From the IMG/VR virus record IMGVR_UViG_3300025141_008848, positions 1 to 64,000 of that record: DNA of 64,000 bases. One strand, written 5' to 3'. The stretch's first letter is position 1. Every line of letters begins with the position of its first letter. This stretch comes from a virus. Positions 379-21,836 of the stretch are shown here, piece by piece. The notes beneath the pieces are model-generated. The model was not told where the DNA came from, made no database searches, and was given only the letters and a program-made list of their open reading frames with translations. The position numbers and the translations under genes are program-made.

Positions 379-1230
379 TTAATAAAGTGATTTTATATAC
401 TCCTTTAATCTATCTATGGGGGTCCATCCTAATGACTCTATTGCGTCATTATTCTCTCTCCTAGTTTCCCTGTAGTTACCCGGTTGGTTAGGTAAATAAG
501 TACACCCAATATCCACGGACTCTTTAAATAAATTAAATACTTCATTAAGAGAGTAATTAGTACCAGTACCCAACTCCCAAGCATCTATATGGTTCCCGTC
601 ATGATTCCCAATTTTTATTAGACCGTCTACAATATCATCTACATGTGTAAAATCCCTTCTTTGTTCACCATCACCGACAATGGTAATTTTATTACCGTCT
701 CTGATTTGTCTTTGCCATAGTCCTATTACTGCAGCCCAATCACCATCTATAATTTCACCCGGACCATATACATTATAAAAACGAACAATATCCATATTTA
801 AATTATATGTTTTTCTATACATTTTACAAATTTCTTCACCTAAATGTTTATACATTGCATATGGTGATTGATAGGGGTTATGCCATTTTGATGATGAACC
901 TGCATACACAATTTTTACGTTATTTAATCTACCCCACTCACACACCGACTCTGTTCCTAGTGTATTTACTTTAAAAGTTTCTGTAGGATTATGGAAGGAT
1001 GGTTGTATACGACTTAAAGCAGCTAAATGAAAACAAATATCAAAATCTGATGCGGGTACAGAATCTATTTCTCCAATATCTAAATCATGATATATACATC
1101 CCTCTTGTCTATTATTAGGATTACCAATTATATAGTTATCTAAACAGTGGACGCTATGGTTTTCTTTTACTAACCTTTTTATAAGATTAGTCCCTATAAA
1201 TCCAGCACCACCAGTTACTAATATTTTCAT
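379..1230 (-). CDS. NAD-dependent epimerase/dehydratase (extended SDR)
   Basis: A 283-residue extended SDR that probably epimerises, dehydrates or reduces a nucleotide sugar. The nucleotide-binding GGAGFIG is at residues 7-13, the SSS segment at 112-114, and the catalytic pair Y124-xxx-K128 in YAMYK; RFYNVYGPG and a RDFTHVDD segment follow as in UDP-glucose 4-epimerases. The frame is open further upstream to 1347, but that would overlap the next gene by more than 100 bases and precede the canonical MKILVTGGAG start, so I place the start at 1230, 4 bases from the stop of the upstream gene. The exact substrate is not deducible. It belongs to the minus-strand glycan operon and ends just before phoH. 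Confidence 0.88.
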   Translation of the reverse strand: MKILVTGGAGFIGTNLIKRLVKENHSVHCLDNYIIGNPNNRQEGCIYHDLDIGEIDSVPASDFDICFHLAALSRIQPSFHNPTETFKVNTLGTESVCEWGRLNNVKIVYAGSSSKWHNPYQSPYAMYKHLGEEICKMYRKTYNLNMDIVRFYNVYGPGEIIDGDWAAVIGLWQRQIRDGNKITIVGDGEQRRDFTHVDDIVDGLIKIGNHDGNHIDAWELGTGTNYSLNEVFNLFKESVDIGCTYLPNQPGNYRETRRENNDAIESLGWTPIDRLKEYIKSLY

Positions 1231-1234
1231 TTCT

Positions 1235-2350
1235 TTAAAGTTGGGTATCCACAAGTTCTCTCGGTGAATCATAATCACCAAACTTTCTTCGGAAAACTTC
1301 ACCAGTATCAGGATTTCTTTCGTATATATACTTCTCCTCCGACTCAACAGAAGACAAATTTTTAATAACCTGTGTATTTATCCATTCGTAGGTTTTTTTC
1401 ATCCCGTCAATTAAGGGTTGGGACACCTTCCACCCAAGATTTTCAAAATAAAGAGAATTATCAGAATTTCTACCATTAACCCCTACTGGACATTTATGCC
1501 CATACTTTTTAACAAAGGAATCACCATCAATATTGTATATATCTAAATCTCTACCAGAAACCTCAATCGCCATTTTCGCAAAATCGTTTATAGAAATCAT
1601 TTCCTCGGAACCTATATTTACAGGGCCTATAAAGTCAGAGTTCATTAAACGTCTTACAGCCTCAATACACTCATCAATATATAAAAAGGAACGAGTTTGA
1701 TTTCCAGGTCCCCAAACCTCAATTGATTCTCCTTCATTAGCCACAGCTACTTTCCGACACATGGCTGCTGGTGCTTTTTCTTTACCACCATCCCATGTTC
1801 CTTCTGGGCCAAAAATATTATGGAATCTCGCTACCCTAACATCTAAACCATAATTTCTATTAAATGATAGGTACAATCGTTCACTAAATAACTTTTCCCA
1901 ACCATACTCTGAATCAGGTTCTGCTGGATACGCAGAATCCTCCGTACAGTTTGGGTTATCAGGGTCTAATTGGTTATGTTCCGGATACATACATGCAGAT
2001 GAAGAATAAAATACTTTTTTAACTTTCTTTACGACACATTCATGGACAACATTTAAGTTAACCAAAGCTGAGTTATGCATAACATCAGCATCATGGTCTC
2101 CCGTAAAAATATATCCTGCACCACCCATATCCGCCGCAAATTGATAGAGTTCGTCAACGTCAGAATCTATAACTTTGGACACTAATTCCGGATTCCTTAA
2201 ATCACCGATAATAAATTTATCAGCTTCTGTTGGAGAAAACTCCGGATTCTTAAGGTCAACACCAATAACGTAAAAACCTTCTTTTTTTAATCTTTTTACC
2301 ATATGACTTCCTATAAAGCCACCTGCACCTAATATTACTGCTTTTTTCAT
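1235..2350 (-). CDS. GDP-mannose 3,5-epimerase-like SDR
   Basis: A 371-residue extended SDR. After the GAGGFIG loop (residues 8-14) it carries a block very like plant GDP-mannose 3,5-epimerase: SSSACMYPE (116-124) with Cys120, YGWEK (149-153), RFHNIFGP, GTWDGGKEKAPAAMCRK (184-200) and QTRSFLYIDECIEAV. In the plant enzyme a Cys and a Lys in the equivalent segments are the acid/base residues, so Cys120 and Lys192 are the likely counterparts here. The family reaction makes GDP-L-galactose and GDP-L-gulose from GDP-mannose. About 45 residues at the C-terminus (ERNPDTGEVFRRKFGDY) extend past the core. The stop is 4 bases from the downstream SDR, and its ATG overlaps the stop of nadE by 4 bases, implying coupled translation. 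The substrate is inferred from motif likeness. Confidence 0.85.
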   Translation of the reverse strand: MKKAVILGAGGFIGSHMVKRLKKEGFYVIGVDLKNPEFSPTEADKFIIGDLRNPELVSKVIDSDVDELYQFAADMGGAGYIFTGDHDADVMHNSALVNLNVVHECVVKKVKKVFYSSSACMYPEHNQLDPDNPNCTEDSAYPAEPDSEYGWEKLFSERLYLSFNRNYGLDVRVARFHNIFGPEGTWDGGKEKAPAAMCRKVAVANEGESIEVWGPGNQTRSFLYIDECIEAVRRLMNSDFIGPVNIGSEEMISINDFAKMAIEVSGRDLDIYNIDGDSFVKKYGHKCPVGVNGRNSDNSLYFENLGWKVSQPLIDGMKKTYEWINTQVIKNLSSVESEEKYIYERNPDTGEVFRRKFGDYDSPRELVDTQL

Positions 2351-3123
2351 ATATTATTATTTTTTATAAATACCGGGATAGGTATCATCTTATGTTTATT
2401 TTGTTTATTAAATTTATTGTATATTTTTAAGACTTCTTCTTGTCTATCTGTACAATTGTATCCCTCTCGCACATATGCGTATTCAGATTCAGTATAATTC
2501 ATTGCCCACTCAAGTTCATCATAAGTAGCTCCTAATTGGTCTTCATCTGTCCTATCATCCCCCCAAAGACCATCGGTAGGGCTAGCTTGGATTATATCAT
2601 CTATTATTCCTAGATTAATTGCAAGTTCTCTAACTTCTGATTTCATTAAGTCTGCAATTGGACTTATATCTACACCACCATCTCCATATTTTGTAAAAAA
2701 CCCAACCCCAAAATCTTCTACTTTATTTCCTGTGCCTACGACTAAACCATCATTTGATTGTGCTATTTGATATAAGGTTGTCATTCTTAGTCGTGCTCTG
2801 GAGTTAGCCAAGGCAAGATTATTTTCGTTATCAGCAAAAATCATCTTAAACGTATCATATACATGAGATAAATTTACTTCCATAGCTGTAACATTATTAT
2901 ACTTACCCTTTAACCATTTAATGTGTTTATTAGCTCTATCTAATTCTGATGGATTTTGGTGGATTGGCATAGAAACCACAATAGTTTTTATTCCTGTCTC
3001 AGCACATAATGTAGAGACTAGTGCAGAATCCACACCACCAGACACCCCAACTACAAAGGTATTAATACTACTATTTTGTGAGTAGTCCCTTAACCAGTTT
3101 ATAATTAGTTGTTGTGTTTTCAT
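2347..3123 (-). CDS. nadE: ammonia-dependent NAD+ synthase
   Basis: A 258-residue protein that converts deamido-NAD to NAD with ATP and ammonia. The PP-loop GVSGGVDSA is at 27-34, and the deamido-NAD binding region TGNKVEDFGVGFFTKYGDGG at about 131-150 is followed by DISPIADL and the DGLWGDDRTDEDQLG loop, all as in bacterial NadE; there is no glutaminase domain. The length is normal for the short form. It is unusual in being embedded in sugar genes with a 4-base overlap with the GME-like gene and 1 base from the methyltransferase gene. The local job might be to keep NAD available for SDR and dehydrogenase steps, or to offset NAD-depleting host defences; both are inference. A sugar amidotransferase role was considered, but the KYGDGG signature favours true NadE. 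Confidence 0.9.
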   Translation of the reverse strand: MKTQQLIINWLRDYSQNSSINTFVVGVSGGVDSALVSTLCAETGIKTIVVSMPIHQNPSELDRANKHIKWLKGKYNNVTAMEVNLSHVYDTFKMIFADNENNLALANSRARLRMTTLYQIAQSNDGLVVGTGNKVEDFGVGFFTKYGDGGVDISPIADLMKSEVRELAINLGIIDDIIQASPTDGLWGDDRTDEDQLGATYDELEWAMNYTESEYAYVREGYNCTDRQEEVLKIYNKFNKQNKHKMIPIPVFIKNNNI

Positions 3124-3124
3124 A

Positions 3125-3964
3125 TTATTTATTTTTAAATTTAATCATAGTATGCCACCCTAAATGACTTTCTAAAAATCTCATAACTGAGTGTGGTAAA
3201 AATCTAAATAACAAAGTTTTTTTGTATGTATAATTTATATATTCTTTTATAATATATGGAAATATGTGGTCCTTATACATATCAACCACTTTAAAATCAT
3301 CTAGTAAGTTAATAAGTTCTTTTTCTGTATATGTATACGCTACGGGACAATTTAACTGAGCTTCTGCAAAATACTTTATAGTCTTCTTTATGTTAAAATT
3401 AAATTTCCATCCATGTTTTAAATAAAAGTATAATGTTTTATAAGATATTCTGGAGTACATCATTATACGTGCCTCCGTATCTTTCTTCATGTACTTTTTT
3501 AGTTCCTTTAATGCCTTTTCTGGTGTCGGAGTATGGTGAAGAACACCAAAGCTATAAATTAAATCATAATCTTCAATAGGTACCACTTTAGATAACTCCT
3601 CAGCATTAGCCTTATAAAATTTTGCTTTAAGATTGTAGACATCAAACCTACGTTTACAAAGTTCTAGAGACTTATCGGAAAGTTCAACACAAGTTAACTC
3701 CGCCCCAGCTCTTACAAAACTTATAGAATCAGTACCAATACCACATCCTATCTCTAATACTTTTTTACCCTTCCACTTATCAAATTCTGCAAATGTAGGG
3801 ATATGAGGTTCAACAAAATACTTTTTAGTCTCAACCTCATCAAAGTATTCTTTAGTGCCCACAGGTTTGTTAGAATGACGCACATTACAAGAGCGAGCAT
3901 TCCAAAATGCTTCAACTTCACCAACACTTACCTTACGTCCCATCGATTCACTAGTAATCCTCAT
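3125..3964 (-). CDS. class I SAM-dependent methyltransferase
   Basis: A 279-residue Rossmann methyltransferase. Motif I VLEIGCGIGTDS lies near residues 69-80, motif II CVELSD follows, and LIYSFGVLHHTPTPEKAL gives motifs IV-V. The N-terminal 60 residues (VEAFWNARSCNVRHS, GTKEYFDEVE) resemble the lead-in of methyltransferases found in polysaccharide loci. The likely job is O- or N-methylation of a sugar or glycan end. It overlaps the upstream dehydrogenase gene by 4 bases (3961-3964) and is 1 base from nadE, so it is part of the same operon. The substrate is unknown. Confidence 0.85.
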   Translation of the reverse strand: MRITSESMGRKVSVGEVEAFWNARSCNVRHSNKPVGTKEYFDEVETKKYFVEPHIPTFAEFDKWKGKKVLEIGCGIGTDSISFVRAGAELTCVELSDKSLELCKRRFDVYNLKAKFYKANAEELSKVVPIEDYDLIYSFGVLHHTPTPEKALKELKKYMKKDTEARIMMYSRISYKTLYFYLKHGWKFNFNIKKTIKYFAEAQLNCPVAYTYTEKELINLLDDFKVVDMYKDHIFPYIIKEYINYTYKKTLLFRFLPHSVMRFLESHLGWHTMIKFKNK

Positions 3965-5058
3965 TTCTTATTTTCTTTAAATTCTATTCCAGATTCTTTT
4001 AATTCTTTTATTACTGAATTTCTTTCATTAACAACAACATTATAACCTAATGTTTGTAAGGTTAGAGCAAATTTTAATTGTTGTGATTCTTCTAACATTG
4101 TACTTTGAGGTTTATAGGTAACATAATCAAAGACTACAGGAATTTCTTTATCTGGGTTAACTCTTATAAATTCTTCAACCTGGTAGGTGAGGTGGAGTTC
4201 GTTCATTTTGTCAGTGGCTTTAGATATTTGTGCATCTATGCCATTCTCTTCAGCAAAAATATGTAAAGCTCTATTATCTCTCGGAAAACACGGACCACCA
4301 TAACCATACCCCCACATTAAATATTTTCCACCAATCCTACTATCAGACCCAATCGCTGATAATATCTTATCTGTTTCACCACCAACCCGATTAGAAATAT
4401 CCCCAATCATATTAGCAAAAGATATTTTAGTCGTTAGGAAACAATTTAAAGATAATTTAGTTATTTCAGCACTAATTCTATCCATTCTACATATTCTGGG
4501 TTTGGAAGTACAATGGTCCACATAGACATTCTCTATAACATTACCAACACTGGTATTAGCTTCACCAATTAGAACCATATCTGCATTAACCTGGTCATTA
4601 ACAATGGTCCCTTGTGCAATAAATTCTGGATTATAACTTACAGTGTAGTTATAGTCCTTAAGGTCTTTTTGTAGTTCATCACAATATCCCGGGAATGTGG
4701 TACAGTTTATAACTAAATGTTTGGTTTGTTTTTGAACACCTAAAGAAATGAGTTCGTTCTTAAGGGATTCGATATGTTTATGGTCATATTTACCATTGGG
4801 TAAAGAAGGGGTATGTACTATAACAAAAATAACGTTATTTTCTAATACTTTATTTAGTTCACTCCATAAATAAAGATTTTTAGAATCTTGGAGTAACTCG
4901 TCCACCCCTGGTTCAGAGGATTTAAATTTTTTAGTTCTCAGTAAATCTAGATATTCTGTATTAATATCATAAGCATCTACCCTATAACCTACTTTTTCTA
5001 GGTTGAGAGCAAAACATAAACCTAATTTACCAATCCCTATTACCGATATTGATTTCAT
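3961..5058 (-). CDS. UDP-glucose/GDP-mannose dehydrogenase family protein
   Basis: A 365-residue enzyme that should oxidise the C6 alcohol of a nucleotide sugar to a uronic acid with two NAD+. The Rossmann start VIGIGKLGL (6-14), central LSLNCFLTTKISFANMIGD (about 202-220) with Lys201 and Asn205, and the catalytic-cysteine loop GYGYGGPCFPRDNRAL with Cys257 and Asp261 fit the family; the usual text is GFGFGGSCFPKD. The C-terminal sugar-binding domain looks short (family proteins are mostly 390-450 residues), but the reading frame shows no break. It is the first gene after a 62-base AT-rich gap and overlaps the methyltransferase gene downstream. UDP-glucose versus another sugar cannot be decided. 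Confidence 0.85.
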   Translation of the reverse strand: MKSISVIGIGKLGLCFALNLEKVGYRVDAYDINTEYLDLLRTKKFKSSEPGVDELLQDSKNLYLWSELNKVLENNVIFVIVHTPSLPNGKYDHKHIESLKNELISLGVQKQTKHLVINCTTFPGYCDELQKDLKDYNYTVSYNPEFIAQGTIVNDQVNADMVLIGEANTSVGNVIENVYVDHCTSKPRICRMDRISAEITKLSLNCFLTTKISFANMIGDISNRVGGETDKILSAIGSDSRIGGKYLMWGYGYGGPCFPRDNRALHIFAEENGIDAQISKATDKMNELHLTYQVEEFIRVNPDKEIPVVFDYVTYKPQSTMLEESQQLKFALTLQTLGYNVVVNERNSVIKELKESGIEFKENKK

Positions 5059-5120
5059 ATATTATTTTTTTTTATATTAAAATATAATTAATTTATTTTA
5101 AATATCTACTATATATTGTA

Positions 5121-5915
5121 CTAAAGTTTGTGCCATTCTTCTGGTATTATATCACCAGTATTAATATTAGCACTAGGACCAAACCAGTTAATTGGAGCAA
5201 CCACTTCCTTACCACCAAATCTATTTAGGTAAGCACCCCACCAACTGAAAGAGGAATTAACAATAATATTTTTTTTACATAACGACATTAACCATAGGTC
5301 TTCTATATCAGAATTGTCTTCCACAAATATCATATTATTAAAATTCATATTATCCTTACACCAAGATATGTCATCTGAAAATACAAAAATATTATCGTAC
5401 TCCCCCAAAATATCTAAAGCATTCTCATAATACTCTATATTTTGTACCGGGTGAAAATCAGAACGTAAAGCATCTGTTCTCCTAATATGCATAGAGATGG
5501 TAGTGGTATTAATTTGTGGATACTTATCTGTTAGTTTTTTAATAATTTTATTATTAGGTGAAAATTCAGTAATAATTGTATCTTTAGACTCTTTAAAATA
5601 TTTTTCACTTTGCCAATAACCATATAGAAAATAGTTATCGTTTGGTATACTATTTGATGAAAAAACCCAAGTATCTGTAAGAGTGTGTAAGTTAGGTAAA
5701 GATTCTGGTATCTTTAAATTTATAGTTAGGTTAGGAAATTTAGTAAGTGTAAATAATCTATGCCCCACACCTGATGCTACTAGTGAAGATTGCTCCTCCT
5801 CAAAAAATTTAGTATCTAAATAAAGTTCGGTATTATTTAATAAAGATATATTTTTTGCGTAGGCATATTGGAACATTTGGTTGCCTAGACCTCCCATAAT
5901 TTTAGAAATAATCAT
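5121..5915 (-). CDS. GT11 family (alpha-1,2-fucosyltransferase-like) glycosyltransferase
   Basis: A 264-residue protein with the three GT11 hallmarks: GGLGNQMFQYAYA (8-20), HIRRTD (143-148), which binds the GDP-sugar, and NSSFSWWGAYL (220-230). GT11 enzymes move L-fucose or a related sugar from a GDP donor onto galactose or other hexoses. It is the best-conserved of three GT11 paralogues in this cluster (the others at 10173 and 11940) and the only one retaining the full HxRRxD motif. It lies 4 bases from the exostosin-like gene upstream. A GDP-sugar donor fits the GDP-mannose epimerase-like gene nearby. Donor and acceptor are inferred. Confidence 0.88.
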   Translation of the reverse strand: MIISKIMGGLGNQMFQYAYAKNISLLNNTELYLDTKFFEEEQSSLVASGVGHRLFTLTKFPNLTINLKIPESLPNLHTLTDTWVFSSNSIPNDNYFLYGYWQSEKYFKESKDTIITEFSPNNKIIKKLTDKYPQINTTTISMHIRRTDALRSDFHPVQNIEYYENALDILGEYDNIFVFSDDISWCKDNMNFNNMIFVEDNSDIEDLWLMSLCKKNIIVNSSFSWWGAYLNRFGGKEVVAPINWFGPSANINTGDIIPEEWHKL

Positions 5916-5919
5916 AATG

Positions 5920-6867
5920 CTAGTTTTTTAAAGATTTTTTTATATATGAGTCGAACAATACGGACAAGTCTAACTTTCTGTAATCCATATCTAGAGCTTT
6001 TTTATATAGATGGTCATTAGAAAGTAATAACTCTTCGGTTACCTCAGAAAAATCATCAACAAATAGAACCGGATAACCCTTAAATATAAATTCCAAATAC
6101 TCACATCTTTTTACAACAGGAACCCTCCTCATATAAAATAATTCCCAATTTCTATGACAATCACAATCTATAGCGTTACCTACTGGGGATATCATAAATT
6201 TATGGTTTTTTAACTCCCTTAAGTAAGTTTCATAATCTAAACCACCAAGGGTTATAGTAGCCCAAGTATGTTTTTTAAATATATCATGGATGTCACCTCT
6301 AGTAGAAAAGTTATTACTAACAGTATGGTTTACATACAGTAGTTTTTCAGGGGATACCTCGTGGTCAATCAAATCCAACATGACTTCATTTTTCCTAGTA
6401 TCATGTGGTCCCATTGTTCTTTTTAACCCGTATGGTATTGGGTGAACCTTACCACCGAAAGATAGGGCATTTACCGCAAAAATAGATAAAACATTATTAG
6501 GTATTTTATCAAAAATAAAATCATCTATAGGGGTATCCTCAAAACCAGTAAAGATGATAAAATTCATATCCGGTAATTTTGAACAAAGGGATAATAAATC
6601 GTTTTTAGCTAGTAAACTATTAACATATGGTCTGTCACTTTCTTGTGTAAATTTAATATCTCTATTATAAAGCCGTATGTTATCAATGAATAGTGTCATA
6701 TAACCCTTATTAGAAGACTTTACCACTTCATAAGATTCAATGAATTCTTTATTTGATATGTTAGCGTCTTTCATAAACCCACCAGGAATATTATTAATAA
6801 TGCTCGCTTGGTCACCAAATGTGTAATCACACATATTAGCTAGATTTGTTGATTCTAATAAAGTCAT
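5920..6867 (-). CDS. exostosin-like (GT47-type) glycosyltransferase
   Basis: A 315-residue protein. The recognisable part is the C-terminal third: KFMISPVGNAIDCDCHRNWE, then RRVPVVKRCEYLEFIF and GYPVLFVDDFSEV. This follows the exostosin-like pattern in which a short P-x-G, CHRxWE and PV(I/V)VK block forms the nucleotide-sugar site of a GT-B fold. The N-terminal half has no motif I can name. The start codon overlaps the stop of the upstream methyltransferase by one base (TAATG arrangement at 6867). It presumably adds one sugar in the same glycan as its neighbours; linkage and sugar are unknown. Confidence 0.65.
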   Translation of the reverse strand: MTLLESTNLANMCDYTFGDQASIINNIPGGFMKDANISNKEFIESYEVVKSSNKGYMTLFIDNIRLYNRDIKFTQESDRPYVNSLLAKNDLLSLCSKLPDMNFIIFTGFEDTPIDDFIFDKIPNNVLSIFAVNALSFGGKVHPIPYGLKRTMGPHDTRKNEVMLDLIDHEVSPEKLLYVNHTVSNNFSTRGDIHDIFKKHTWATITLGGLDYETYLRELKNHKFMISPVGNAIDCDCHRNWELFYMRRVPVVKRCEYLEFIFKGYPVLFVDDFSEVTEELLLSNDHLYKKALDMDYRKLDLSVLFDSYIKKSLKN

Positions 6868-7505: not shown

Positions 7506-7539
7506 ATTCGTATTTTATTTATTTTAATTATTACCATTT

Positions 7540-10113: not shown

Positions 10114-10172
10114 TATGTTTGTTTTTTGTTCATATAAAAATAATAATTTATTTTTATATTATAAAGTATTAT

Positions 10173-10970: not shown

Positions 10971-11028
10971 ATATATTATTTTTATTAAAAATATAATGAA
11001 TTAAGGTTAAAGTGAATGACTATCTTAT

Positions 11029-11934: not shown

Positions 11935-11939
11935 AATAT

Positions 11940-14190: not shown

Positions 14191-15589
14191 ATTTTAATTT
14201 TAACATATTAAATTCTGTATCTTTTAATGATTGTGGTATTGTGTCCGTCAATCGTTCCCCCCAAGTCCTGTTAACTACAGTTATTTCCTCCAGTATAGAA
14301 GGTTCACCATGTAAATCAAACATCCGTTTATAGTAATCTACATCCATCAACCAATTTAACCCCTCATCGAAGAAAAGTAAATTTTTATTTTTAATGGTCA
14401 TACCACTTGGACATCCCATAGTATTGTTACCCGTCCATATCATATTATTCCAGTGTGGGTTATAAAGTCGATAGTAAGATTTACCATCATTACTGTGATA
14501 AAATTTAGACATCAACCAACTAATATTAGGTTGCGAAATAAGAAAATCTGACTGTATTTTTAACGAATTTTTATCATATAAAAAATCATCCTGGAATAAA
14601 ACTTTAATCCATTTTCCAGAACATAACCTCATAGCGTTATTGATATTTGGAGATATAATACCCCTACCTCTTGAATTCCTAAAATATTTTATATTTAATT
14701 TATCCGACCACTGAGTATAAACATCCTTTATAGTGTCATCCTCACTATGGTCAGATAATACCACCTCAAAGTCCTTAAATGTCTGATTACTCAAAATAGT
14801 TAAACTATGCTCCAAAAACTCCCTACCCCTACCACCGTAACCATAAGTTGGAATCGCAATAGAAAAAAATGGTTTATTTAGTGTGGTGACTAATTTACTA
14901 ATATTCATGGATAAATTTTTGGGTACGTGTGGTGGGGAATAACTTTTTTTAACTTTTTTAGTTTCTGAAGCTAATTCGTAAATAGTTTTTGTTTCGGTAC
15001 CAACATTATACAAACCACTTAAATTATCCATTACCATAGAAATTATAATTTTAGATATGTTAGGACAGTAGTCAAAATTTCCCACCTGGTCAATCCAAGC
15101 ATTATCATAAGGAAATGGGGTTGGTTTATGAGTACATCTACACAAAAGATAATTTTTAGAACTTAACTGAACTAAACCGTCACCTAACAATTTTGTGTAA
15201 CCATACCAATTATTACAATGAACTGGTACAGTATTTTCTGTAGCTTCAGAATCAGAATTAGAGTAAAGATAGTCGGTAGAAATGTGCACCAGTTTAACAT
15301 TCCAGTTATTACAAAAATCTATTAAGTTGGATACCCCCACGTAGTTAACGTCCCAATGAACATCTCTATTTTTATTGTAGGTGTCGGTATTAGCGATACA
15401 ATTAACTATTACATCATATTTACAATGTTGTATCGCACCAAACTCTACATTAGTTAGTAGGTGGTAAGTACCCAAGTCGGTAATATCAAAACCATCACTA
15501 TTTCTAGAAATACAATCCCATTGGGTTTGCTTAACTATCTCTGAACCCAATAACCCATCACCTAATACTAAAACTCTTAATTTTTCCAT
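14183..15589 (-). CDS. fusion: RmlD-like SDR reductase - GT2 glycosyltransferase
   Basis: A 468-residue frame joining two activities. Residues 1 to about 230 look like a dTDP-4-dehydrorhamnose reductase relative: VLGDGLLGSEIV, NCIANTDTYN, VHISTDYLYS and WYGYTKLLGD as Y-xxx-K. From about residue 240, SIAIPTYGYGGRGREFLEHS, DFEVVLSDHSEDDT and KWIKVLFQDDFLYD are the GT2 GT-A fold with its metal-binding acidic pair. One chain could make the deoxysugar and then transfer it. No stop or frame slip at the junction (around 14870-14900). It overlaps the DUF5672-like gene by 8 bases and the RfbH-like gene by 13. Confidence 0.82.
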   Translation of the reverse strand: MEKLRVLVLGDGLLGSEIVKQTQWDCISRNSDGFDITDLGTYHLLTNVEFGAIQHCKYDVIVNCIANTDTYNKNRDVHWDVNYVGVSNLIDFCNNWNVKLVHISTDYLYSNSDSEATENTVPVHCNNWYGYTKLLGDGLVQLSSKNYLLCRCTHKPTPFPYDNAWIDQVGNFDYCPNISKIIISMVMDNLSGLYNVGTETKTIYELASETKKVKKSYSPPHVPKNLSMNISKLVTTLNKPFFSIAIPTYGYGGRGREFLEHSLTILSNQTFKDFEVVLSDHSEDDTIKDVYTQWSDKLNIKYFRNSRGRGIISPNINNAMRLCSGKWIKVLFQDDFLYDKNSLKIQSDFLISQPNISWLMSKFYHSNDGKSYYRLYNPHWNNMIWTGNNTMGCPSGMTIKNKNLLFFDEGLNWLMDVDYYKRMFDLHGEPSILEEITVVNRTWGERLTDTIPQSLKDTEFNMLKLKYA

Positions 15590-16878
15590 TTATTAACGAA
15601 TATACTTTCTATATAATCAAACACTTCATTTGTATAATGTGGTGCAGCACCAACAAAAAATACTTTATCTAAAACCTTATTTGCGTTAGGATAATCTCCT
15701 AACTCCCCCAAATGACTATAACCTGGATGCATTAGTATATTACCAGCAAAATAATTCCTAGTCTGAATTTTATTCTCTTCTAAAAAAGACACTAACCGAC
15801 CCTTTAATTTTTTATCTTTACAAATAAAGGGGGTACCAAACCAACAAGTGTCAGCTTTTGGTAGCATAGAAACTCCTTTGATTCCAGACACATACTTTAG
15901 AAAAATAGACTCAATAGTATTTTTACTACGTTTTCTATTTGTATCTATCTCATCAAATTTCTTTAATTGTACTAACCCAATGGACCCTTGTAAGTCCATA
16001 GGTTTTAAATTGTACCCCATATTGGTAAAAACATACTTATGGTCTATTATCCCATCATATGTGTCTAACCACGTATCAAACCTTTTACCACACGTACCAC
16101 AAGATAGTAGGTTAGCAGAACCAACACAATAACAATCTCTACCCCACCAAGCAAAACTAGTAAATAATTTTTTTAATGGGGCTATGTTAGTACAAACAGC
16201 ACCACCTTCACCAGTAGATATGTGATGAGCTGGATAAAAGGAAGAAGTCCAAGCTTCATAGTACTCACTTAAATGTTTACCGTCCCATTTAGAACCAATA
16301 CTATCACAACTATCACCTATTAATTTTATATCATGTTTTTTACATAATTCACTTAAAAAATCCATGTCAGGTACATTACCTAATACCGGAGATACAAATA
16401 TAGCCTTAGTTCTAGAAGTTATTTTTTCCTCTATTTTAGTGACATCAAAGTTCAACGTATCATATTCTATATCTACAAATACTGGAGTTAAATTATTTTG
16501 TACTATAACAGAGATTGTCGTTGGAAACCCAACAGGTGAAACAATAACCTCATCACCATCTCCCCAACCAAAATACTTCTTAAGAGCTGACATTAGAACT
16601 AAATTAGCTGAACTACCTGAGTTTACCATTTGGACAAACTCGGCACCAAATAACTTACCAAACTTACGTTCAAATTTATGGACATTTTCTCCAGCAACAA
16701 CCCACTTACCTTCTATAAAAGTTTTTATGGCTGCCATAATCTCTTCTTCATCCCAGTAAGGTCCAGAATACAACACTTGGCTTTTACCTGGAACAAATGC
16801 TTGGTTGTAAAGGTATTTTGGTTTGTTTTCTTTTAGATAACCTAAAAGTGATGGTAATATAGTATCTATTTCTTTCAT
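15577..16878 (-). CDS. RfbH-like nucleotide-sugar 3-dehydrase (DegT/DnrJ fold, PMP and Fe-S)
   Basis: A 433-residue member of the DegT/DnrJ/EryC1 fold. The position that normally holds the PLP-binding lysine reads SFYPAHHISTGEGG with His218-His219, the signature of 3-deoxysugar dehydrases (RfbH/E1, ColD) rather than aminotransferases. Four cysteines, C249-x-C251-x8-C260-x2-C263 before GKRF, correspond to the iron-sulfur cysteines of E1, and GYNLKPMDLQGSIGL matches the same family. RfbH removes the C3 hydroxyl of a CDP-4-keto-6-deoxyhexose, the step toward 3,6-dideoxyhexoses, and needs an E3-type reductase, which I do not see here. It overlaps the fusion gene downstream by 13 bases and its ATG overlaps the stop of the upstream GT2 gene by one base. 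Confidence 0.87.
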   Translation of the reverse strand: MKEIDTILPSLLGYLKENKPKYLYNQAFVPGKSQVLYSGPYWDEEEIMAAIKTFIEGKWVVAGENVHKFERKFGKLFGAEFVQMVNSGSSANLVLMSALKKYFGWGDGDEVIVSPVGFPTTISVIVQNNLTPVFVDIEYDTLNFDVTKIEEKITSRTKAIFVSPVLGNVPDMDFLSELCKKHDIKLIGDSCDSIGSKWDGKHLSEYYEAWTSSFYPAHHISTGEGGAVCTNIAPLKKLFTSFAWWGRDCYCVGSANLLSCGTCGKRFDTWLDTYDGIIDHKYVFTNMGYNLKPMDLQGSIGLVQLKKFDEIDTNRKRSKNTIESIFLKYVSGIKGVSMLPKADTCWFGTPFICKDKKLKGRLVSFLEENKIQTRNYFAGNILMHPGYSHLGELGDYPNANKVLDKVFFVGAAPHYTNEVFDYIESIFVNKWKN

Positions 16879-17597
16879 TATCTAACTAATTTATTATACG
16901 GGGGCTTGTTTCGTATTTTTGCGGCTACATCATTAACCAAACCCAAATCAACCTTATGGTCATTTAGTGGGTTAGTTTCGTTATACGTATATAGTTGTTC
17001 GTTTACAAATAAATAATGTTCATCAGTTGCCATTTCTAACATTGGGAACATAAAAGCTAAATCACCAGTCACTTTCCAATACACACCATTTTCATCCTTC
17101 AAGTCATCTACTTCTATTTCTCTCCATAAAAAAGCTCTCCAAGTTCTTAAATGTGAACAAGTCATTCTACTTTTTCTTAAATGAGGGGTTATTTCTTGCT
17201 TAGAAGAAAAACCATTTGCTCCAGTTGAATAACCAAATGAACCGTTGGTAATCCATACATTATTATCACTATATATTTTAGCAACTTTCCCTAACACAGA
17301 GGAATTGGGTAACCAATCATCACCATCTACTTCCACACATACTTCATTGTCTTTAACTCCATAATCACCTCTAATTATTTGGTCATAGTTTCCAGGCTGA
17401 TACATTTTTGTCTCGTTCTCGACTAAAATAAACCTATCATCATCTTTAATTATATCTTTTACCAAGGTAACAGAGTTGTCAGTTGATAAATCATCAGTAA
17501 TGTAACATTTAAAATCTTTAAAGTCTTGAGCCATAATAGAACCCAAACAACGCTCGACATATTGGTCGCAGTTATATAGTGTAGTTAGTATAATCAT
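16878..17597 (-). CDS. GT2 family glycosyltransferase
   Basis: A 239-residue GT-A protein. ILTTLYNCDQYVERCLGSI, KCYITDDLSTDNS and CVEVDGDDWLP give the nucleotide site and D-x-D metal motif of GT2 enzymes. The C-terminal part has CSHLRTWRAFLW, seen in glycan-locus GT2 members. An 82-base AT-rich gap precedes it, so it could be first in a transcript, although no recognised promoter is visible. Sugar and linkage are unknown. Confidence 0.85.
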   Translation of the reverse strand: MIILTTLYNCDQYVERCLGSIMAQDFKDFKCYITDDLSTDNSVTLVKDIIKDDDRFILVENETKMYQPGNYDQIIRGDYGVKDNEVCVEVDGDDWLPNSSVLGKVAKIYSDNNVWITNGSFGYSTGANGFSSKQEITPHLRKSRMTCSHLRTWRAFLWREIEVDDLKDENGVYWKVTGDLAFMFPMLEMATDEHYLFVNEQLYTYNETNPLNDHKVDLGLVNDVAAKIRNKPPYNKLVR

Positions 17598-17679
17598 AGT
17601 ATTTTTTATTTTTTATTTTTTATTTTATTAAGTACTTAAAATATAGCCAATTTATTTATTTAAGTCAATATTCGTACAA

Positions 17680-18465
17680 TTACAATTCTAGGAGTTTAAC
17701 CCATTCTGTAATTATTTCATCATTAGATAGAGTTATGGTGTCATGTTCAGTGGCTTTACTACCATAAAATTTTGTACCCGTAGTTTCACACTCATCCTTA
17801 ACTAAAGATGCTACCTCACTATGTGAGGAAAGATACACAGCTTCTACTTCATCATATATTTTTTGTTTATCACTCATAAACCCTCTCTCTATCACATTAT
17901 CATTCACCAGAGGTTTTACAAAATTATTATAGTAGTTCGGGTCAGTAACATTACCGAACAACATAACTTTTTTAAACCCATCTCTGAGCGCTTTATGGAT
18001 AGATACGTGTGTTTGTTTGTTTTCGTCTATAGAGCCTATAATTCCTGCAATACCTTTTGTTTCGGGAGATTTTGGGGTGCATTTTAATACCTCTTTTAGA
18101 TTAGGTATTATACTATATTTTCCAGTATACTTATAGTGATAATTTCTTTGTTTTTCATTTAAAAAAACTACTTCATCCCAGTGTTGAGGCATAGACCCTA
18201 CCTCGAAAACATTTTTTTCATGACAAGAGAGTAAAACTTTATCGGCTTCCGGTCGGGAATTTAAAGGGATAAAATGAAAAATTACCTTATCTTTTTTATT
18301 TATATGTAATTTATTTATTTTACCAGATTTACATTTATCTAAATGCCATTCATGAGGACCATAAAATGTAGTATCATATCCCGCCTTATTTAACTCATTT
18401 GTAAGGTTTATAAATGCAAAGGTAGACCCACCACGATTACTCCAACCAGAAACTATTTTTACCAT
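17680..18465 (-). CDS. GT-B fold glycosyltransferase (GT4-like, short)
   Basis: A 261-residue protein. The opening VKIVSGWSNRGGSTFAFINL is a glycine-rich GT-B N-terminal loop. KGIAGIIGSIDENKQTHVSI and KKVMLFGNVTD match the linker and first strand of a GT4 C-terminal domain, and ERGFMSDKQKIYDEVEAVYL the following helix. The canonical E-x7-E region appears only weakly (SEVASLVKDECE). It is shorter than most GT4 proteins (350-400). It overlaps the upstream GT gene by 7 bases. Call based on fold-like pattern, so moderate. Confidence 0.6.
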   Translation of the reverse strand: MVKIVSGWSNRGGSTFAFINLTNELNKAGYDTTFYGPHEWHLDKCKSGKINKLHINKKDKVIFHFIPLNSRPEADKVLLSCHEKNVFEVGSMPQHWDEVVFLNEKQRNYHYKYTGKYSIIPNLKEVLKCTPKSPETKGIAGIIGSIDENKQTHVSIHKALRDGFKKVMLFGNVTDPNYYNNFVKPLVNDNVIERGFMSDKQKIYDEVEAVYLSSHSEVASLVKDECETTGTKFYGSKATEHDTITLSNDEIITEWVKLLEL

Positions 18466-19556
18466 TCTAATACAGTTTTATATTTTTTTATCATATCCCC
18501 ATCTAAACCTTCATCGTCATCACTATTAAATTGTGGTGTCATAGGGTAAAAAGACTTAATATACTCTATCAGTCTATTTTCAGTAGTATGGACCAAATCA
18601 AACTTAATGTCTTTTATTTTGTACATTTTACCGTTTTCAGACGGTACAGGTCCTGCGTTTGAATTAACTATCCATTTACCATCACCTATCTGATACCCTG
18701 GTGGGGAATTAAGAGGTCCATTCATTATACCTTTTCTATTAAGGACATTTATTAGGTTTGGGGGTATCTCTGCACAAACACTAATACCATGACCCATACC
18801 CTTAAGGTTTAGTAATAAATCCATTGCCTTATCATGTAAGGTGTCACACACAAAAAGAACATCAAACTTTTCATTATCCCTAAAAGACCTTTTAATTTTA
18901 ATGGGTAAAACATCTTTATATTTTTCTGCAAATAAAGACCTATTTTTTTCCCATTCGTCATTAGTTTGACCAATAGATAAGTGAGTGATTCTAATATCGG
19001 TACAGACACCAATCTTAACATCCGACAAATAATTAGAAAAACAGAACTCAACATCATAAAAGTGAAAACCACTAACCGATTCATCAAAATGATTAATAAT
19101 CCTATTTTTAGACACACCAAAAAATAACCCATCTACTAATGCGACCTCAGTCAACCTAATTCCACTATCTTTAGAATATCTAGTTAACCATTTTTTACCT
19201 TCATGTTCATGATAAACAGCACCATGCATTTTAGAAAAATCATCCCACCACCTTCCAGTTGATGACAGATACCTAGTACCAGCCACACCTATAATCCCAA
19301 ACGAAGGATTCCTCTTAAAATGTTTTAAAATTTTTCTACCCCAATTCTTAGTCTCAAATTTAATATCATCGTGACAAAAAACTACAATATCGTTAGTGGA
19401 TTTTTCTAAACCCATATTATAGACTTCATTTAGTGAATATTTACCAGGATTTTCATAGGGTAAAATTTCTACATTATGAACACCACAGGTAGATTTAATG
19501 AGTGCAATAAAATCTTCATTTATTTTTTTAGTACTAAATATTACCGATAATCCCAT
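18459..19556 (-). CDS. GT2-like glycosyltransferase with C-terminal extension
   Basis: A 365-residue protein. The first 230 residues follow the GT2_5 pattern of glycan-locus enzymes: SVIFSTKKINEDFI, EVYNMGLEKSTNDIVVFCHDD, IGVAGTRYL, and EVALVDGLFFGVSKNRI with FHFYDVEFCF. The HDD segment is the likely metal site. The last 130 residues (after RSFRDNEKFDVLFVCDTLHD) form a second, Rossmann-like strand-helix segment with no motif I can name, perhaps a degenerate GT-B half. It is separated by nothing from the dUTPase stop, so it is in the same transcript. Confidence 0.72.
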   Translation of the reverse strand: MGLSVIFSTKKINEDFIALIKSTCGVHNVEILPYENPGKYSLNEVYNMGLEKSTNDIVVFCHDDIKFETKNWGRKILKHFKRNPSFGIIGVAGTRYLSSTGRWWDDFSKMHGAVYHEHEGKKWLTRYSKDSGIRLTEVALVDGLFFGVSKNRIINHFDESVSGFHFYDVEFCFSNYLSDVKIGVCTDIRITHLSIGQTNDEWEKNRSLFAEKYKDVLPIKIKRSFRDNEKFDVLFVCDTLHDKAMDLLLNLKGMGHGISVCAEIPPNLINVLNRKGIMNGPLNSPPGYQIGDGKWIVNSNAGPVPSENGKMYKIKDIKFDLVHTTENRLIEYIKSFYPMTPQFNSDDDEGLDGDMIKKYKTVLEW

Positions 19557-20165
19557 TTATTCTATACCTGTTGAACCAAAACCACCATCACCTCTTGCTG
19601 TTTTGGTTAAGTTATTTACTTTAACTAAATTAGCCCATCTTCCTGAGATAACTGGAGATACTACGGCTTGAGCAATTCTATCTCCATGAGTAATAGTAAA
19701 ATTTTCATTACTTAAATTTATTAAAATTACTTTTATTTCACCACTATATCCCCTATCTACAGTACCTGGAGTATTTAATACTGTTATACCATTTTTTATA
19801 GCTAATCCACTTCTGGGTCTGACTTGGACCTCAAAACTTTCAGGTAACTCAAAATGGATACCTGTAGGGACTAAAACTCTTTCTAATGGTTTTACCGTAA
19901 GGGTGGAAGATAAATCAGCTCTTAAATCCATCCCACTATCATCCAAGTACTTATACTCTAAATTTGGGTTATTTGAGGTATTCTGATATACGATTTTAGG
20001 TTTTACTTGTTCCATCGCAGATTTAACAGTTTCTTCTTCTAATTTGGTTAACATATTACGGTCCACACCTAAATGAGACAACATTTGTTCATCATCTAAA
20101 GAGTCTTTTCTATTTCCAGCTAAATTCTTAATTCTCTCCCATGTCGTACCTTCTTTACGTCCCAT
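19557..20165 (-). CDS. dut: dUTPase with N-terminal extension
   Basis: A 202-residue trimeric-type dUTP diphosphatase that keeps uracil out of DNA and supplies dUMP for dTMP synthesis. The five motifs are present: DSGMDLRA (76-83), RPRSGLA (116-122), GTVDRGYSGEI (134-144), GDRIAQ (161-166) and RGDGGFGSTG (191-200). The core starts near residue 56. The first 55 residues form a helical, charged extension (MGRKEGTTWERIKNL...) absent from ordinary dUTPases of about 145 residues and with no clear motif. It sits between glycan genes and two small genes, so nucleotide metabolism is interleaved with the glycan operon. Confidence 0.95.
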   Translation of the reverse strand: MGRKEGTTWERIKNLAGNRKDSLDDEQMLSHLGVDRNMLTKLEEETVKSAMEQVKPKIVYQNTSNNPNLEYKYLDDSGMDLRADLSSTLTVKPLERVLVPTGIHFELPESFEVQVRPRSGLAIKNGITVLNTPGTVDRGYSGEIKVILINLSNENFTITHGDRIAQAVVSPVISGRWANLVKVNNLTKTARGDGGFGSTGIE

Positions 20166-20166: not shown

Positions 20167-20400
20167 TTAAATATTATAATATTTAGGTGTTAGTTGTGGG
20201 TGTAAAAAGTCCTCAAAAGGGGCTTTAGCTATTGAAACAACTTCAGAATCTCTTGTATCTTCTGATAGGTATGAAGCCAGTCTTTTATTAACCTCGAATA
20301 GAGATTCTGCTTCTACGACATATTTAAATTTTTTAACTTTAGCATTTCCTTCGTTATCCATAACTCCAGTTTCGAATGCTACGATTGCTTGATAGTACAT
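20167..20400 (-). CDS. DUF4494-like small protein
   Basis: A 77-residue protein. I use the internal start MYYQAIVAFETG because an AAGGATAAAAATATG arrangement gives a ribosome site there; the longer frame to 20469 would overlap the upstream CDGSH gene. The shape (M-x-x-Y/F start, a KKFKYVVEAESLFEVNKRL segment, and a final IAKAPFEDF) resembles DUF4494, a small family known mainly from Bacteroidetes and their phages. No function is established. It is 1 base from dUTPase and 4 bases after the CDGSH gene. Confidence 0.7.
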   Translation of the reverse strand: MYYQAIVAFETGVMDNEGNAKVKKFKYVVEAESLFEVNKRLASYLSEDTRDSEVVSIAKAPFEDFLHPQLTPKYYNI

Positions 20401-20404
20401 ATTT

Positions 20405-20587
20405 TTATCCTTTAAAATTACACGATTTGTGAGTTCCATCACACATCGGTTGTTTATGAGTCTGACCACATCTACATAATGCGTACTGCTCCGTTACTTC
20501 TAATTCTTTTCCATTTCTAGTTACACTAGTTTTTCCTTTGACCAAAATAGGTCCATTTTCCAGTATATTAATTTCCACTTTTTCCAT
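20405..20587 (-). CDS. CDGSH-type iron-sulfur protein
   Basis: A 60-residue protein. CRCGQTHKQPMCDGTH at residues 38-53 matches the CDGSH consensus C-x-C-x2-(S/T)-x3-P-x-C-D-G-(S/A/T)-H exactly, giving Cys38, Cys40, Cys49 and His53 as ligands of a [2Fe-2S] cluster. The first 30 residues form the beta strands that usually frame the site. Family members are small electron-transfer or redox-sensing proteins. There is no membrane anchor. It lies between a glycosyltransferase and a DUF4494-like gene. A role as electron donor to an iron-sulfur enzyme such as the RfbH-like dehydrase is conceivable but is only inference. Confidence 0.93.
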   Translation of the reverse strand: MEKVEINILENGPILVKGKTSVTRNGKELEVTEQYALCRCGQTHKQPMCDGTHKSCNFKG

Positions 20588-20597
20588 AATTTATGTT

Positions 20598-21836
20598 TTA
20601 TGATTTTCTTATTAATTCTCTATACCACTCAGCTCTTTGTTGAGTAACCGTTTTAAGAGCGTATTTAGGGAAAACCGTTTCATATAACTTTTCACCTAAA
20701 TCCTCCACCAAAGCAGGGCTATCAATTAACCTCTTAAGGTGTTGATACCACATTTTGTGATTTTTTACTTTAGGGACTAATAGAGCATTCCCATTTTTAT
20801 TTATACCACCACCTTTCTCAAAAGCATTTATACAATCAATGGTATAAGGACCATAGTCCTGTAATACTAAAGCTTTTTTATGAAACCCAGCCTCAATTAC
20901 TTTTAGTTGTGACTTAACCTTATTAAAAATATGTTGTTTTAAAGGTGCGACACTAATATCAAAGTTATTATAGTTTGATGCATATGTGGTAATCGGCTTA
21001 GTCCAAACTCTTCTATAGTTAGAATCTAAATTACCAGTAATTTGTTTCTTTTTAAAAGACAGAAGTTCTTCTTTGTATTTGTCATCAGATAAAATCCTAT
21101 AATTATCTGTCATTATTTGTTCATATTTATACCACACTGATTCAGTTGGTGTAATTGGTCTTTGTGATTGTTTACCTGTCTTTTGGTCAAATACTGTCAT
21201 GGAGCCACGTAAATCGTACCCACATAAAACAATTTGAAACTGGTCCTTTCTTGAACCATATAATTTACCAGATACACCACTAAGAATCTCTAAATCTTTA
21301 ATGTGTGAAGAACCCCCTAACCACCCGATTCTAACTTTATTTGATTTTGTAGGTTTGGGAACATACTGTTTCTCCTCATGGTCAATAGCGTTAGGGTATA
21401 TATAAACATTTTTATTTAGTTTTGCTATTTCTTCAGCAAAAACAGTTGTGGTGGTGGTAACCGCTCCAGCTAATCGGATATTAGCTTTTATCTTCTCATC
21501 AATTTTATTCTCCTTAACAATCATATGGGCAGGATGGTCCTGAGTAGGTAACCAATAATCATCCAGGTCCATAATATGGGGTATCCCCCACTTGGTTAAT
21601 CTTTTTGCAACCGACTTAGAGGCATCATAATCGGGACCAATACTTCTATGGTAGTGAACCAAATCATATTGTTTCCACCAATTATCATCATGGTAAGGGG
21701 GGTCGTAAACTATATCTACCCAGAAATCTTCTGGATACATATCTTGTAAGTAGGTATGGGGGTCCACAGACCTAAATTTGGATACACCAGTTCTATCACT
21801 GGGTAGTACTAAAATTCTGTATTTTGCTTTTTTCAT
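20598..21836 (-). CDS. GT-B (GT4-like) glycosyltransferase
   Basis: A 412-residue protein. ILVLPSDRTGVSKFRSVDPH is the N-terminal loop, LVHYHRSIGPDYD and PHIMDLDDYWLP lie in the acceptor domain, TTTTTVFAEEIAKLNKNVYIYPNAID marks the domain linker, and VRIGWLGGSSHIKDLEIL begins the donor domain. The later ISVAPLKQHIFNKVKSQLKVIEAG is the nucleotide-binding E-x7-E-like segment. This pattern is common in phage and cyanophage glycan genes. It is the most upstream glycosyltransferase of the cluster, with a 49-base gap to the preceding gene. Acceptor unknown. Confidence 0.82.
   Translation of the reverse strand: MKKAKYRILVLPSDRTGVSKFRSVDPHTYLQDMYPEDFWVDIVYDPPYHDDNWWKQYDLVHYHRSIGPDYDASKSVAKRLTKWGIPHIMDLDDYWLPTQDHPAHMIVKENKIDEKIKANIRLAGAVTTTTTVFAEEIAKLNKNVYIYPNAIDHEEKQYVPKPTKSNKVRIGWLGGSSHIKDLEILSGVSGKLYGSRKDQFQIVLCGYDLRGSMTVFDQKTGKQSQRPITPTESVWYKYEQIMTDNYRILSDDKYKEELLSFKKKQITGNLDSNYRRVWTKPITTYASNYNNFDISVAPLKQHIFNKVKSQLKVIEAGFHKKALVLQDYGPYTIDCINAFEKGGGINKNGNALLVPKVKNHKMWYQHLKRLIDSPALVEDLGEKLYETVFPKYALKTVTQQRAEWYRELIRKS

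Follow-up and report, generated by a model that had tools for sequence, protein, structure and literature searches.

The first 64,000 nucleotides (the window) of the 128,462-base virus record IMGVR_UViG_3300025141_008848 contain a run of phage-borne nucleotide-sugar and glycan genes at 379-21836, all on the minus strand. We found that this run holds a discrete island of ~18 kb (379-18465), complete in the window and lying between phoH and a core block, W18459-W20598 (Table 1). The content of the island is replaced between these fixed borders, with largely or wholly different gene sets at the same spot in related phages, and the ten island genes that could be tested are under purifying selection. 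An original prediction made from the DNA alone had described the run as one glycan assembly cluster in a single direction. The direction and the sugar-related nature of the genes are borne out by the minus-strand run and by Pfam matches. The cluster is not one unit, however, as a replaceable island stands beside a conserved block with two glycosyltransferases (GTs), and its parts are widespread (relatives of one fusion gene occur in 67 viral loci and in SAR11).

The island lies between phoH and a conserved core block

The DNA polymerase of this phage identified 26 relatives, 15 near (76-91%) and 11 far (54-60%). The GT W20598 was found in 14 of the 15 near and 7 of the 11 far loci, the dUTPase in 12/15 and 7/11, and the small protein W20167 in 12/15 near loci and 0/11 far loci, several loci ending before the core genes. 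W18459 was present in 11/15 near and 7/11 far loci, with several loci ending before this gene. Since W18459, the dUTPase, W20167 and W20598 thus belong to the core of the lineage, the island ends at 18465. At the other border, seven close relatives each have a PhoH closing the island that shares 86-94% identity with that of this phage. The suggestion that the record ends inside the island was wrong, as PhoH at 2-355 closes it. In the distant relative G025, the PhoH (L247:5798-8836) has a ~350-residue interruption within one open reading frame (ORF) of 1012 amino acids (aa), apparently an intein or similar insert.

Island content is replaced among relatives

Twelve stretches beyond W18459 were fetched from relatives and ten were tabulated, eight from the nearer lineage and two from distant relatives; L249, whose gene list equals that of L248, and L250 (2.7 kb) were omitted. 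Measured within the fetched stretches only, seven of the eight nearer relatives reach the PhoH block, and with it the end of the island, after 13.5-18.5 kb; the island of G012 is not closed within 20 kb, and the islands of the two distant relatives span 5.5-5.6 kb. The identity of four core proteins to those of this phage was 88% in G018, 87% in G008, 85% in both G002 and G004, 84% in G009, 83% in G006, 77% in G011 and 69% in G012. Counting island genes as shared at an identity of at least 50% and a cover of at least 60%, nine of the 18 were shared with G018, six with G008, one with G012 and none with G002, G004, G009, G006 or G011. G002, G004 and G009 carry one island type in common (16 to 18 genes).

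A whole-record comparison with G006 (155,892 bases), ~the first 30 kb of which has no counterpart in our record, served as a control. Outside the island, 84 of 89 ORFs matched at an identity of at least 40%, and 85 of the 87 that matched at all were collinear. Among the 18 island ORFs none matched at 40% or above, and four matched at all (23-31%). Insertion of host DNA or an assembly join, either of which the original prediction had allowed might account for the block, is ruled out by these collinear relatives.

The replaced islands were sampled by Pfam searches. In G004, 8/10 proteins had a match (two GT2, FkbM methyltransferase, Caps_synth, Gly_transf_sug, DegT, an epimerase and a weak RXYLT1_C, the last in a protein that also matches the GT114 model built here). 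In G006, 6/10 matched (GT10, HAD plus an NTP-transferase domain, DegT, FkbM, an epimerase and one weak match), and in G011, 4/7 (GT2, APH kinase, DegT and GDP_Man_Dehyd). These matches indicate that the three islands are sugar-gene islands too, with many genes lacking an assignment.

Island genes are under purifying selection and keep their active sites

The ratio of nonsynonymous to synonymous substitution rates (dN/dS) was calculated by the Nei-Gojobori method between this phage and G018 or G008, omitting partners below 150 bits. For 10 of the 18 island genes, 18 comparisons gave values of 0.061-0.276, compared with 0.052-0.211 in 12 comparisons of six conserved genes, although dS was near saturation for the island genes (0.63-1.66). 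The SDR-cupin-methyltransferase fusion W7540 (SDR, short-chain dehydrogenase/reductase) and seven other island genes had no scorable partner in the two relatives.

Active-site positions were also retained. In the GDP-mannose 3,5-epimerase (GME) homolog, C120, K192, Y149 and K153, which we take to be the catalytic Cys, Lys, Tyr and Lys, were kept in 84/84 viral homologs, as befits the GDP-mannose epimerase-like enzyme that had been predicted. In W7540, residues Y149, K153, H356, H358, E362, H405, Y519, H622, Y663, E665 and H666 were present in 33/33 phage and 80/80 bacterial sequences. In W15577, a homolog of the 3-dehydrase E1, H218 together with C191, C249, C251 and C263 was kept in 8/8 homologs at an identity of at least 50%; in the wider DegT group, however, the His was kept in 19/25 and the last three cysteines in 12/25.

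For the sugar genes that large marine phages carry, a 2010 comparison of cyanophages by Sullivan left open both a working role and the possibility of non-functional "stuffer" DNA filling a large head (PMC3037559). The low dN/dS and the complete active sites argue against the latter. Recent capture of host DNA likewise fits poorly with the similar G+C content (0.321 in the island versus 0.336 in the rest) and with phage fusions that stand apart from those of SAR11 (see below). We consider filler or freshly captured DNA barely credible. The case that the sugar genes work is made jointly by borders that stay fixed, content that is swapped, purifying selection and active sites that are intact.

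Gene content of the run

Most genes were assigned by Pfam, NCBIfam and PDB searches (Table 1).

Table 1. Genes of the island, its borders and the adjoining core block (window coordinates).
Feature	Position	Strand	Evidence
PhoH, cut by contig end; left island border	2..355	-	118-aa open-ended ORF; Pfam PhoH E=2.6e-21
W379 NAD-dependent sugar epimerase/dehydratase (SDR)	379..1251	-	Pfam Epimerase E=3.5e-46; program-called ORF starts 1347
W1235 GDP-mannose 3,5-epimerase homolog	1235..2350	-	PDB 2c59 E=2e-88
W2347 NH3-dependent NAD+ synthetase	2347..3123	-	Pfam E=2.9e-51; PDB 3fiu E=2e-35
W3125 class I S-adenosylmethionine methyltransferase	3125..3964	-	Methyltransf_25 E=5e-16
W3961 nucleotide-sugar (UDP-glucose-type) 6-dehydrogenase	3961..5058	-	TIGR03026 205 bits, cut-off 189.8
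W5121 GT11 glycosyltransferase	5121..5915	-	Pfam Glyco_transf_11 E=4e-29
W5920 GT114-family glycosyltransferase (A075L homolog)	5920..6867	-	profile vs A075L E=1.8e-49
W6867 possible methyltransferase (weak)	6867..7505	-	Methyltransf_31 14.9 bits, below cut-off 27
W7540 857-aa SDR/cupin-like/3-C-methyltransferase fusion	7540..10113	-	PDB MtmC E=6e-74; Cj1427-like SDR E=1e-23
W10173 GT11 glycosyltransferase	10173..10970	-	Pfam E=6.7e-12
W11029 GT17 glycosyltransferase	11029..11934	-	Pfam E=4.5e-20
W11940 GT11 glycosyltransferase	11940..12851	-	Pfam E=1e-12
W12848 methyltransferase	12848..13513	-	Methyltransf_24 29.6 bits, cut-off 26.3
W13501 DUF5672 glycosyltransferase-like	13501..14190	-	Pfam E=4.9e-19
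W14183 fusion, RmlD-like reductase + GT2	14183..15589	-	RmlD E=1.7e-17, GT2 E=8e-12
W15577 RfbH/E1-type CDP-4-keto-6-deoxyglucose 3-dehydrase homolog	15577..16878	-	PDB 3bcx E=5e-81
W16878 GT2 glycosyltransferase	16878..17597	-	Pfam E=1.5e-13
W17680 island protein, right island end	17680..18465	-	among lineage loci read, only in G008 and G018
W18459 GT2-like core glycosyltransferase, right border	18459..19556	-	Glyco_tranf_2_5 E=3e-28
W19557 dUTPase, core	19557..20165	-	Pfam dUTPase E=1.5e-26
W20167 small core protein	20167..20469	-	72-96% identical in near relatives
W20598 core glycosyltransferase	20598..21836	-	phrog_7162 "glycosyltransferase" E=2e-39

Where four or more sugar-modifying enzymes had been predicted, Pfam recognised six nucleotide-sugar enzymes or domains (W379, W1235, W3961, the N-termini of W7540 and W14183, and W15577). 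The expected count of at least ten GTs also holds: eight exceed the Pfam cut-offs (W5121, W10173, W11940, W11029, W13501, the C-terminus of W14183, W16878 and W18459), and W5920 and W20598 are supported by their GT114 and PHROG 7162 matches, respectively. Three of the four methyltransferase domains claimed are clear (W3125, W12848 and W7540), and the fourth, W6867, is weak and under the cut-off. The predicted fusions, 3-dehydrase homolog and C-methyltransferase are present in W7540, W14183 and W15577. The families listed earlier largely held, but the NAD synthetase, the dUTPase and the cut-off PhoH had not been named.

Pfam and PHROG searches gave no match for W17680, and a sequence search against the PDB gave none for W20598. 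Distant relatives of W20598 (~25% identity in the rows shown) occur in many Escherichia phage records and in five Campylobacter phage records. W14183 is represented by two separate adjacent ORFs in G008 (L242:3320-4722), which means that a joining or a splitting of the two parts took place within the lineage.

W5920 is a GT114-family homolog of a chlorovirus xylosyltransferase

No Pfam match at E<=0.05 was found for W5920, which had been predicted to be GT47-like. The predicted structure of its family (predicted local distance difference test, pLDDT, 81) was closest to A075L of chlorovirus PBCV-1 (Foldseek E=6e-15), and a profile of the family matched A075L in the PDB over profile positions 109-319 (E-value in Table 1), with otherwise only two matches near E=0.1. 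According to passages of PMC11571054, A075L is a beta-xylosyltransferase that helps to build the N-glycan core on the major capsid protein of PBCV-1, its catalytic and donor-binding residues are D73, R158, N202, R208 and E211, and the type member of GT114 was once filed under GT47. In an alignment in which A075L numbering was counted by hand, these residues correspond to D111, R190, N231, R239 and E242 of W5920, which are invariant in 14/14 sequences. On sequence and model evidence W5920 is an A075L homolog of the GT114 family, so that the GT call stands and its family changes. It matches just two of 50,697 phage records.

The island also encodes a UDP-glucose-type dehydrogenase, which is the step ahead of the decarboxylation of UDP-glucuronate to UDP-xylose. 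The best PDB match of W379 was a UDP-glucose 4-epimerase (4zrm, E=7e-32), with the UDP-glucuronate decarboxylase 4m55 lower (E=2e-27); no gene is established from sequence as a UDP-xylose synthase, W379 being a possible candidate. The GT114 link gives a biochemical hypothesis, namely that xylose from UDP-xylose may be added onto a deoxysugar of a virion glycan; the activity expected of an A075L-type enzyme would be transfer of beta-xylose to fucose.

W7540 is a candidate one-protein route to a 3-C-methyl sugar

W7540 consists of an SDR (residues 1-310), a cupin-like part (about 340-420) and a zinc-binding 3-C-methyltransferase (452-852), and its predicted structure has a pLDDT of 84. The SDR is closest to Campylobacter Cj1427 (VIA Z 35), whose PDB entry is titled NAD-dependent dehydrogenase and was solved with GDP-heptose. 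The methyltransferase part resembles MtmC (Foldseek TM 0.90 by target; VIA Z 48-49), and the sequence and model contain the features of MtmC and TcaB9: a three-part fold, a zinc-binding N-domain and the catalytic Tyr/His/Glu/His, whose roles we presume from TcaB9 in agreement with the titles of its mutant structures. The middle part has eight strands in the model and invariant HxH...E...H residues, which would be the cupin metal site if this were a CapF-like SDR-cupin arrangement. The cupin assignment is nevertheless weak by homology (Pfam E=0.03; Cap5F E=0.14), and the VIA-align listing, which would not rule a cupin out, contained none. These features suggest that W7540 may be a self-contained route to a 3-C-methyl sugar, in which C4 would be oxidised with bound NAD, C3 methylated, the sugar epimerised and C4 reduced, all on one chain.

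Relatives of the fusion were found in 45 viral loci by scan and in 67 once an alignment was used; of these, 49 cover 800 or more query residues and one is a merely weak match. Among bacteria, the best 80 of 330 matches were kept, of which 77 bear Pelagibacterales names, and in the family of one matched bacterium 77 of 197 genomes matched over at least 820 of 856 positions. The fusion is chromosomal in SAR11. A GT17 homolog was present in 48 of the best 80 of 330 bacterial loci, within two ORFs of the fusion in 46. In phage fusion loci, GT17 lay within the stretch shown in 11/34 and was adjacent in 5; in the window, one GT11 gene separates the two. The fusion is thus a candidate one-protein route to a 3-C-methyl sugar in abundant marine bacteria, many of whose genomes carry it in the chromosome. 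A longer phage homolog, with an ORF of 1124 aa, was seen at L036:9992-13366.

Recent capture of the fusion from SAR11 was not supported by a quick tree of undefined root. The tree sampled 24 random and four named loci from the 80 bacterial ones, and omitted phage rows below 800 aa, two repeats of one contig each and the 1124-aa L036. One side (100*) held 26 bacterial rows, 25 with SAR11 names and one labelled "Proteobacteria". The other held 31 phage rows together with L133, a metagenome-assembled genome of Patescibacteria, and L135 (SAR86), both with a full-length fusion in apparently chromosomal contexts. The phage fusions are a diverse group set apart from SAR11.

Other sugar enzymes and partners without a match

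GME homologs also occur in cyanophages. The NAD synthetase W2347 scored 184.7 bits with TIGR00552, over its cut-off of 63.65, and 186.9 bits with NF010587, under its cut-off of 255. NAD synthetase also lies near UDP-glucose dehydrogenase in the sugar clusters of cyanophage S-SSM7 and of the 642-kb phage LR756502.

In the W15577 sequence, His replaces the lysine that would bind pyridoxal phosphate, and four [2Fe-2S] cysteines are present, in what we take to be the motif of E1/RfbH. Its score of 363.7 bits falls under the curated NCBIfam equivalog cut-off of 423, however, and W15577 is consequently filed as a homolog only. The partners of E1, a PF00970 reductase domain (FAD_binding_6) and a PF00483 nucleotidyltransferase, had no match in the incomplete record either. 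With the partners unmatched in this record and the cut-off missed, a finished CDP-3,6-dideoxy pathway is not established.

The original prediction had also argued against a complete polymer pathway, and our searches agree. There was no match to Bac_transf (lipid-carrier transferase) or Polysacc_synt (flippase) in the incomplete 128-kb record, and no cluster protein had a transmembrane (TM)-like window. The island accordingly holds no membrane-type candidate for a Wzy-type polymerase, the Wzy family itself not having been searched, and no ORF with three or more TM-like windows was found in the 12 stretches from relatives. As our record is without ~30 kb that is present in G006, absence is not proof.

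Most of the gene set recurs in a 642-kb phage

Twelve of the 18 island genes have counterparts at 445-465 kb in the uncultured 642-kb phage LR756502. Identities were 79% for E1, 69% for GT17, 68% for the fusion, 61% for DUF5672, 59% for both the RmlD-GT2 fusion and the NAD synthetase, 54% for GT114, 48-52% for the three GT11 proteins, 46% for a methyltransferase and 31% for the dehydrogenase. Best-match assignment cannot separate the three GT11 paralogs, and the matches of W379 and W1235 (24-25%) were not counted. Nine of the genes stand in the same order, compared with 4.8 expected (P=0.0003 by shuffling). LR756502 is not among the records matching the DNA polymerase of this phage. The match indicates that most of a glycan gene set can move, and has moved, between very different phages. 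Similar gene order was seen in the viral contigs L015, L038 and L039.

The phage lineage probably infects Bacteroidota

The window encodes a gp32-type single-stranded DNA-binding protein (Pfam E=1e-14), a DNA polymerase of family B (exonuclease domain, Pfam E=6e-12) and a tail sheath akin to those of T4-like phages. The polymerase matched 17 phage records, which include Salinibacter, Nostoc, Anabaena and Dolichospermum phages (22-31% identity in the rows shown) and no Synechococcus or Prochlorococcus phage. The recombinase UvsX is 44% identical to that of the cultured Flavobacterium phage immuto 3-5A.

A Shine-Dalgarno (SD)-like motif preceded 3 of 95 ORFs (background 7.3%), and the leaders were A-rich, with 55% A at -15 to -10. 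The corresponding values were 3/36 and 62% A in Cellulophaga phage phi38:1, 19/35 and 41% in T4, and 7/34 and 32% in S-SSM7. The upstream signals are therefore like those of a Bacteroidota phage and unlike those of S-SSM7 or T4. Against this, near relatives had SD-like motifs in 37/255 ORFs (14.5%, background 6.2%), 32 of the 37 coming from three gene families. Judged by these sequence features, the host of this T4-like lineage is likely to belong to the Bacteroidota.

Possible acceptors of the glycan

We tentatively read the island as a cytoplasmic glycan-assembly "serotype" cassette acting on virion proteins, a reading whose chances we put slightly below even. Host NDP-sugars would be converted in the cytoplasm to GDP-L-galactose or gulose by GME, and the UDP-glucose-type dehydrogenase would make a UDP-hexuronate, possibly leading to UDP-xylose via a further enzyme. 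The fusion may supply a 3-C-methyl deoxy or hexose sugar. The NAD synthetase would keep NAD available or, alternatively, amidate a sugar acid. From these sugars the soluble GTs (GT11, GT17, GT114, GT2 and DUF5672) would assemble a short glycan, methylated and specific to the phage, for which the conserved core GTs may provide a foundation. By analogy with chloroviruses, its acceptor would most likely be a cytoplasmically made virion protein, and a swap of the island would alter the surface type of the phage, much as an O-antigen locus sets serotype. A broader version appears possible but rather doubtful: unrelated phages from ~150 kb to 642 kb would exchange such a "serotype cassette", build a branched, methylated virion glycan that includes a 3-C-methyl sugar, and hold O-antigen-like types under diversifying selection.

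Several points weigh against virion proteins as the acceptor. Peripheral GTs without TM segments also extend the core of lipooligosaccharide at the inner membrane face, and solubility can therefore not choose between virion and lipooligosaccharide. The two closest relatives of this phage lack the fusion gene. Bacteria carry GT114 too, according to part of PMC11571054. Published opinion on cyanophages, jumbo phages and pelagimyophages, as expressed in passages of PMC9602691, PMC7824862 and PMC7029224, favours a change of the host surface.

In that published reading, soluble GTs would extend or cap host lipooligosaccharide or another envelope glycan, blocking adsorption of sister phages or changing the surface seen by grazers and neighbours. 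The isolated cyanophage S-SSM7 has GME, methyltransferase, NAD synthetase, UDP-glucose dehydrogenase and GT genes in one cluster; SAR11 chromosomes carry the same fusion and a GT17 gene, so that the product fits a cell-surface glycan, and hypervariability suits superinfection exclusion. With no lipid-carrier transferase or flippase match in the record and no membrane-type protein in the island, however, the phage must borrow host export within the lytic cycle, and the closest solved relative of W5920 acts on a viral capsid glycan (PMC11571054, in part). A host-surface target is a serious possibility, though clearly short of an even one.

The machinery looks cytoplasmic from its sequences, and virion proteins and lipooligosaccharide on the inner membrane face would both fit it, whereas DNA fits poorly. 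Several of these GT families are oligosaccharide builders. The original prediction had included DNA modification among the targets, and sugars on hypermodified bases might protect phage DNA against restriction: phage GTs that modify DNA are known (PMC12619734, in part), and a dUTPase gene lies in the same run. The incomplete record gave no match to the thymidylate synthase/hydroxymethylase family, though, and on present evidence this target is very unlikely. A product other than a glycan coat, either a small secreted molecule or a nucleotide sugar, would suit the 3-C-methyltransferase and 3-dehydrase, which resemble deoxysugar-tailoring enzymes, and in part of Iyer 2021 a different cyanophage cluster is suggested to make a secondary metabolite (PMC7824862). 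The set nevertheless includes ~ten GTs and no scaffold-making enzyme among the island Pfam matches, making such a product a very slim prospect. Among all acceptors we slightly favour virion proteins, on the strength of the conserved core GTs and the link to GT114.

Relation to known systems

Phage sugar clusters and hypervariable islands with GTs are already in print (passages of PMC3037559, PMC9602691, PMC7824862 and PMC7029224). Among T4-like cyanophages, the S-SSM7 cluster also holds epimerases, and P-SSM2 likewise has a cluster near phoH (PMC3037559, in part). This phage differs from P-SSM2, S-SSM7 and S-SCSM1 in its lineage, SD-poor genes, two-border replacement, SDR-cupin-C-methyltransferase fusion and GT114. 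The host-recognition cluster of pelagimyophages is likewise a hypervariable island with many GTs in syntenic marine myoviruses, but passages of that report place it amid structural genes between vrlC and gp14, with tail fibres, and call its divergence gradual rather than replacement (PMC7029224). In contrast, the island described here is bordered by phoH and GT2/dUTPase genes, and the Pfam matches of its proteins include no tail-fibre domain.

Chlorovirus PBCV-1 (A075L/GT114, A064R) resembles this phage in its virus-encoded GTs, methyltransferases and multi-domain glycan enzymes (PMC11571054, in part). PBCV-1 is, however, a eukaryotic algal virus with a known acceptor, and only one GT family is shown to be common to both. 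Immuto 3-5A (Immutovirus) is an aquatic myophage with T4-like gp20/gp23, a Bacteroidota host and its own GT/transaminase/epimerase block. Besides UvsX, it matches a DegT aminotransferase outside the island (W109888, 54%) and W379 (43%). Its DNA polymerase is annotated as family A (family B in this phage), matches in 142 of its 160 kb were limited to 12 of 107 ORFs, and its cluster content is different.

Bacterial O-antigen (rfb) loci also have glycan gene sets replaced between conserved flanks. Unlike them, this island has no membrane-type polymerase candidate, and searches of the incomplete record for a flippase or a lipid-carrier transferase gave no match. As far as our searches show, which were not aimed at these features by name, the phoH-bounded swapped island, the selection test, the GT114 link and the largely collinear huge-phage cassette appear to be new.

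Other genes of the record

A second sugar locus lies outside the island at L003:7888-10097 (record 109888-112100) and comprises a DegT aminotransferase, W109888, and a GT2; a homolog of W109888 (60%) sits inside the island of G006. An FKBP-type peptidyl-prolyl isomerase is encoded amid replication genes at 62409-62843 of the window (Pfam E=2.6e-18), and a MORN-repeat protein at L004:208-1548 (record 121208-122551; Pfam E=1.4e-9).

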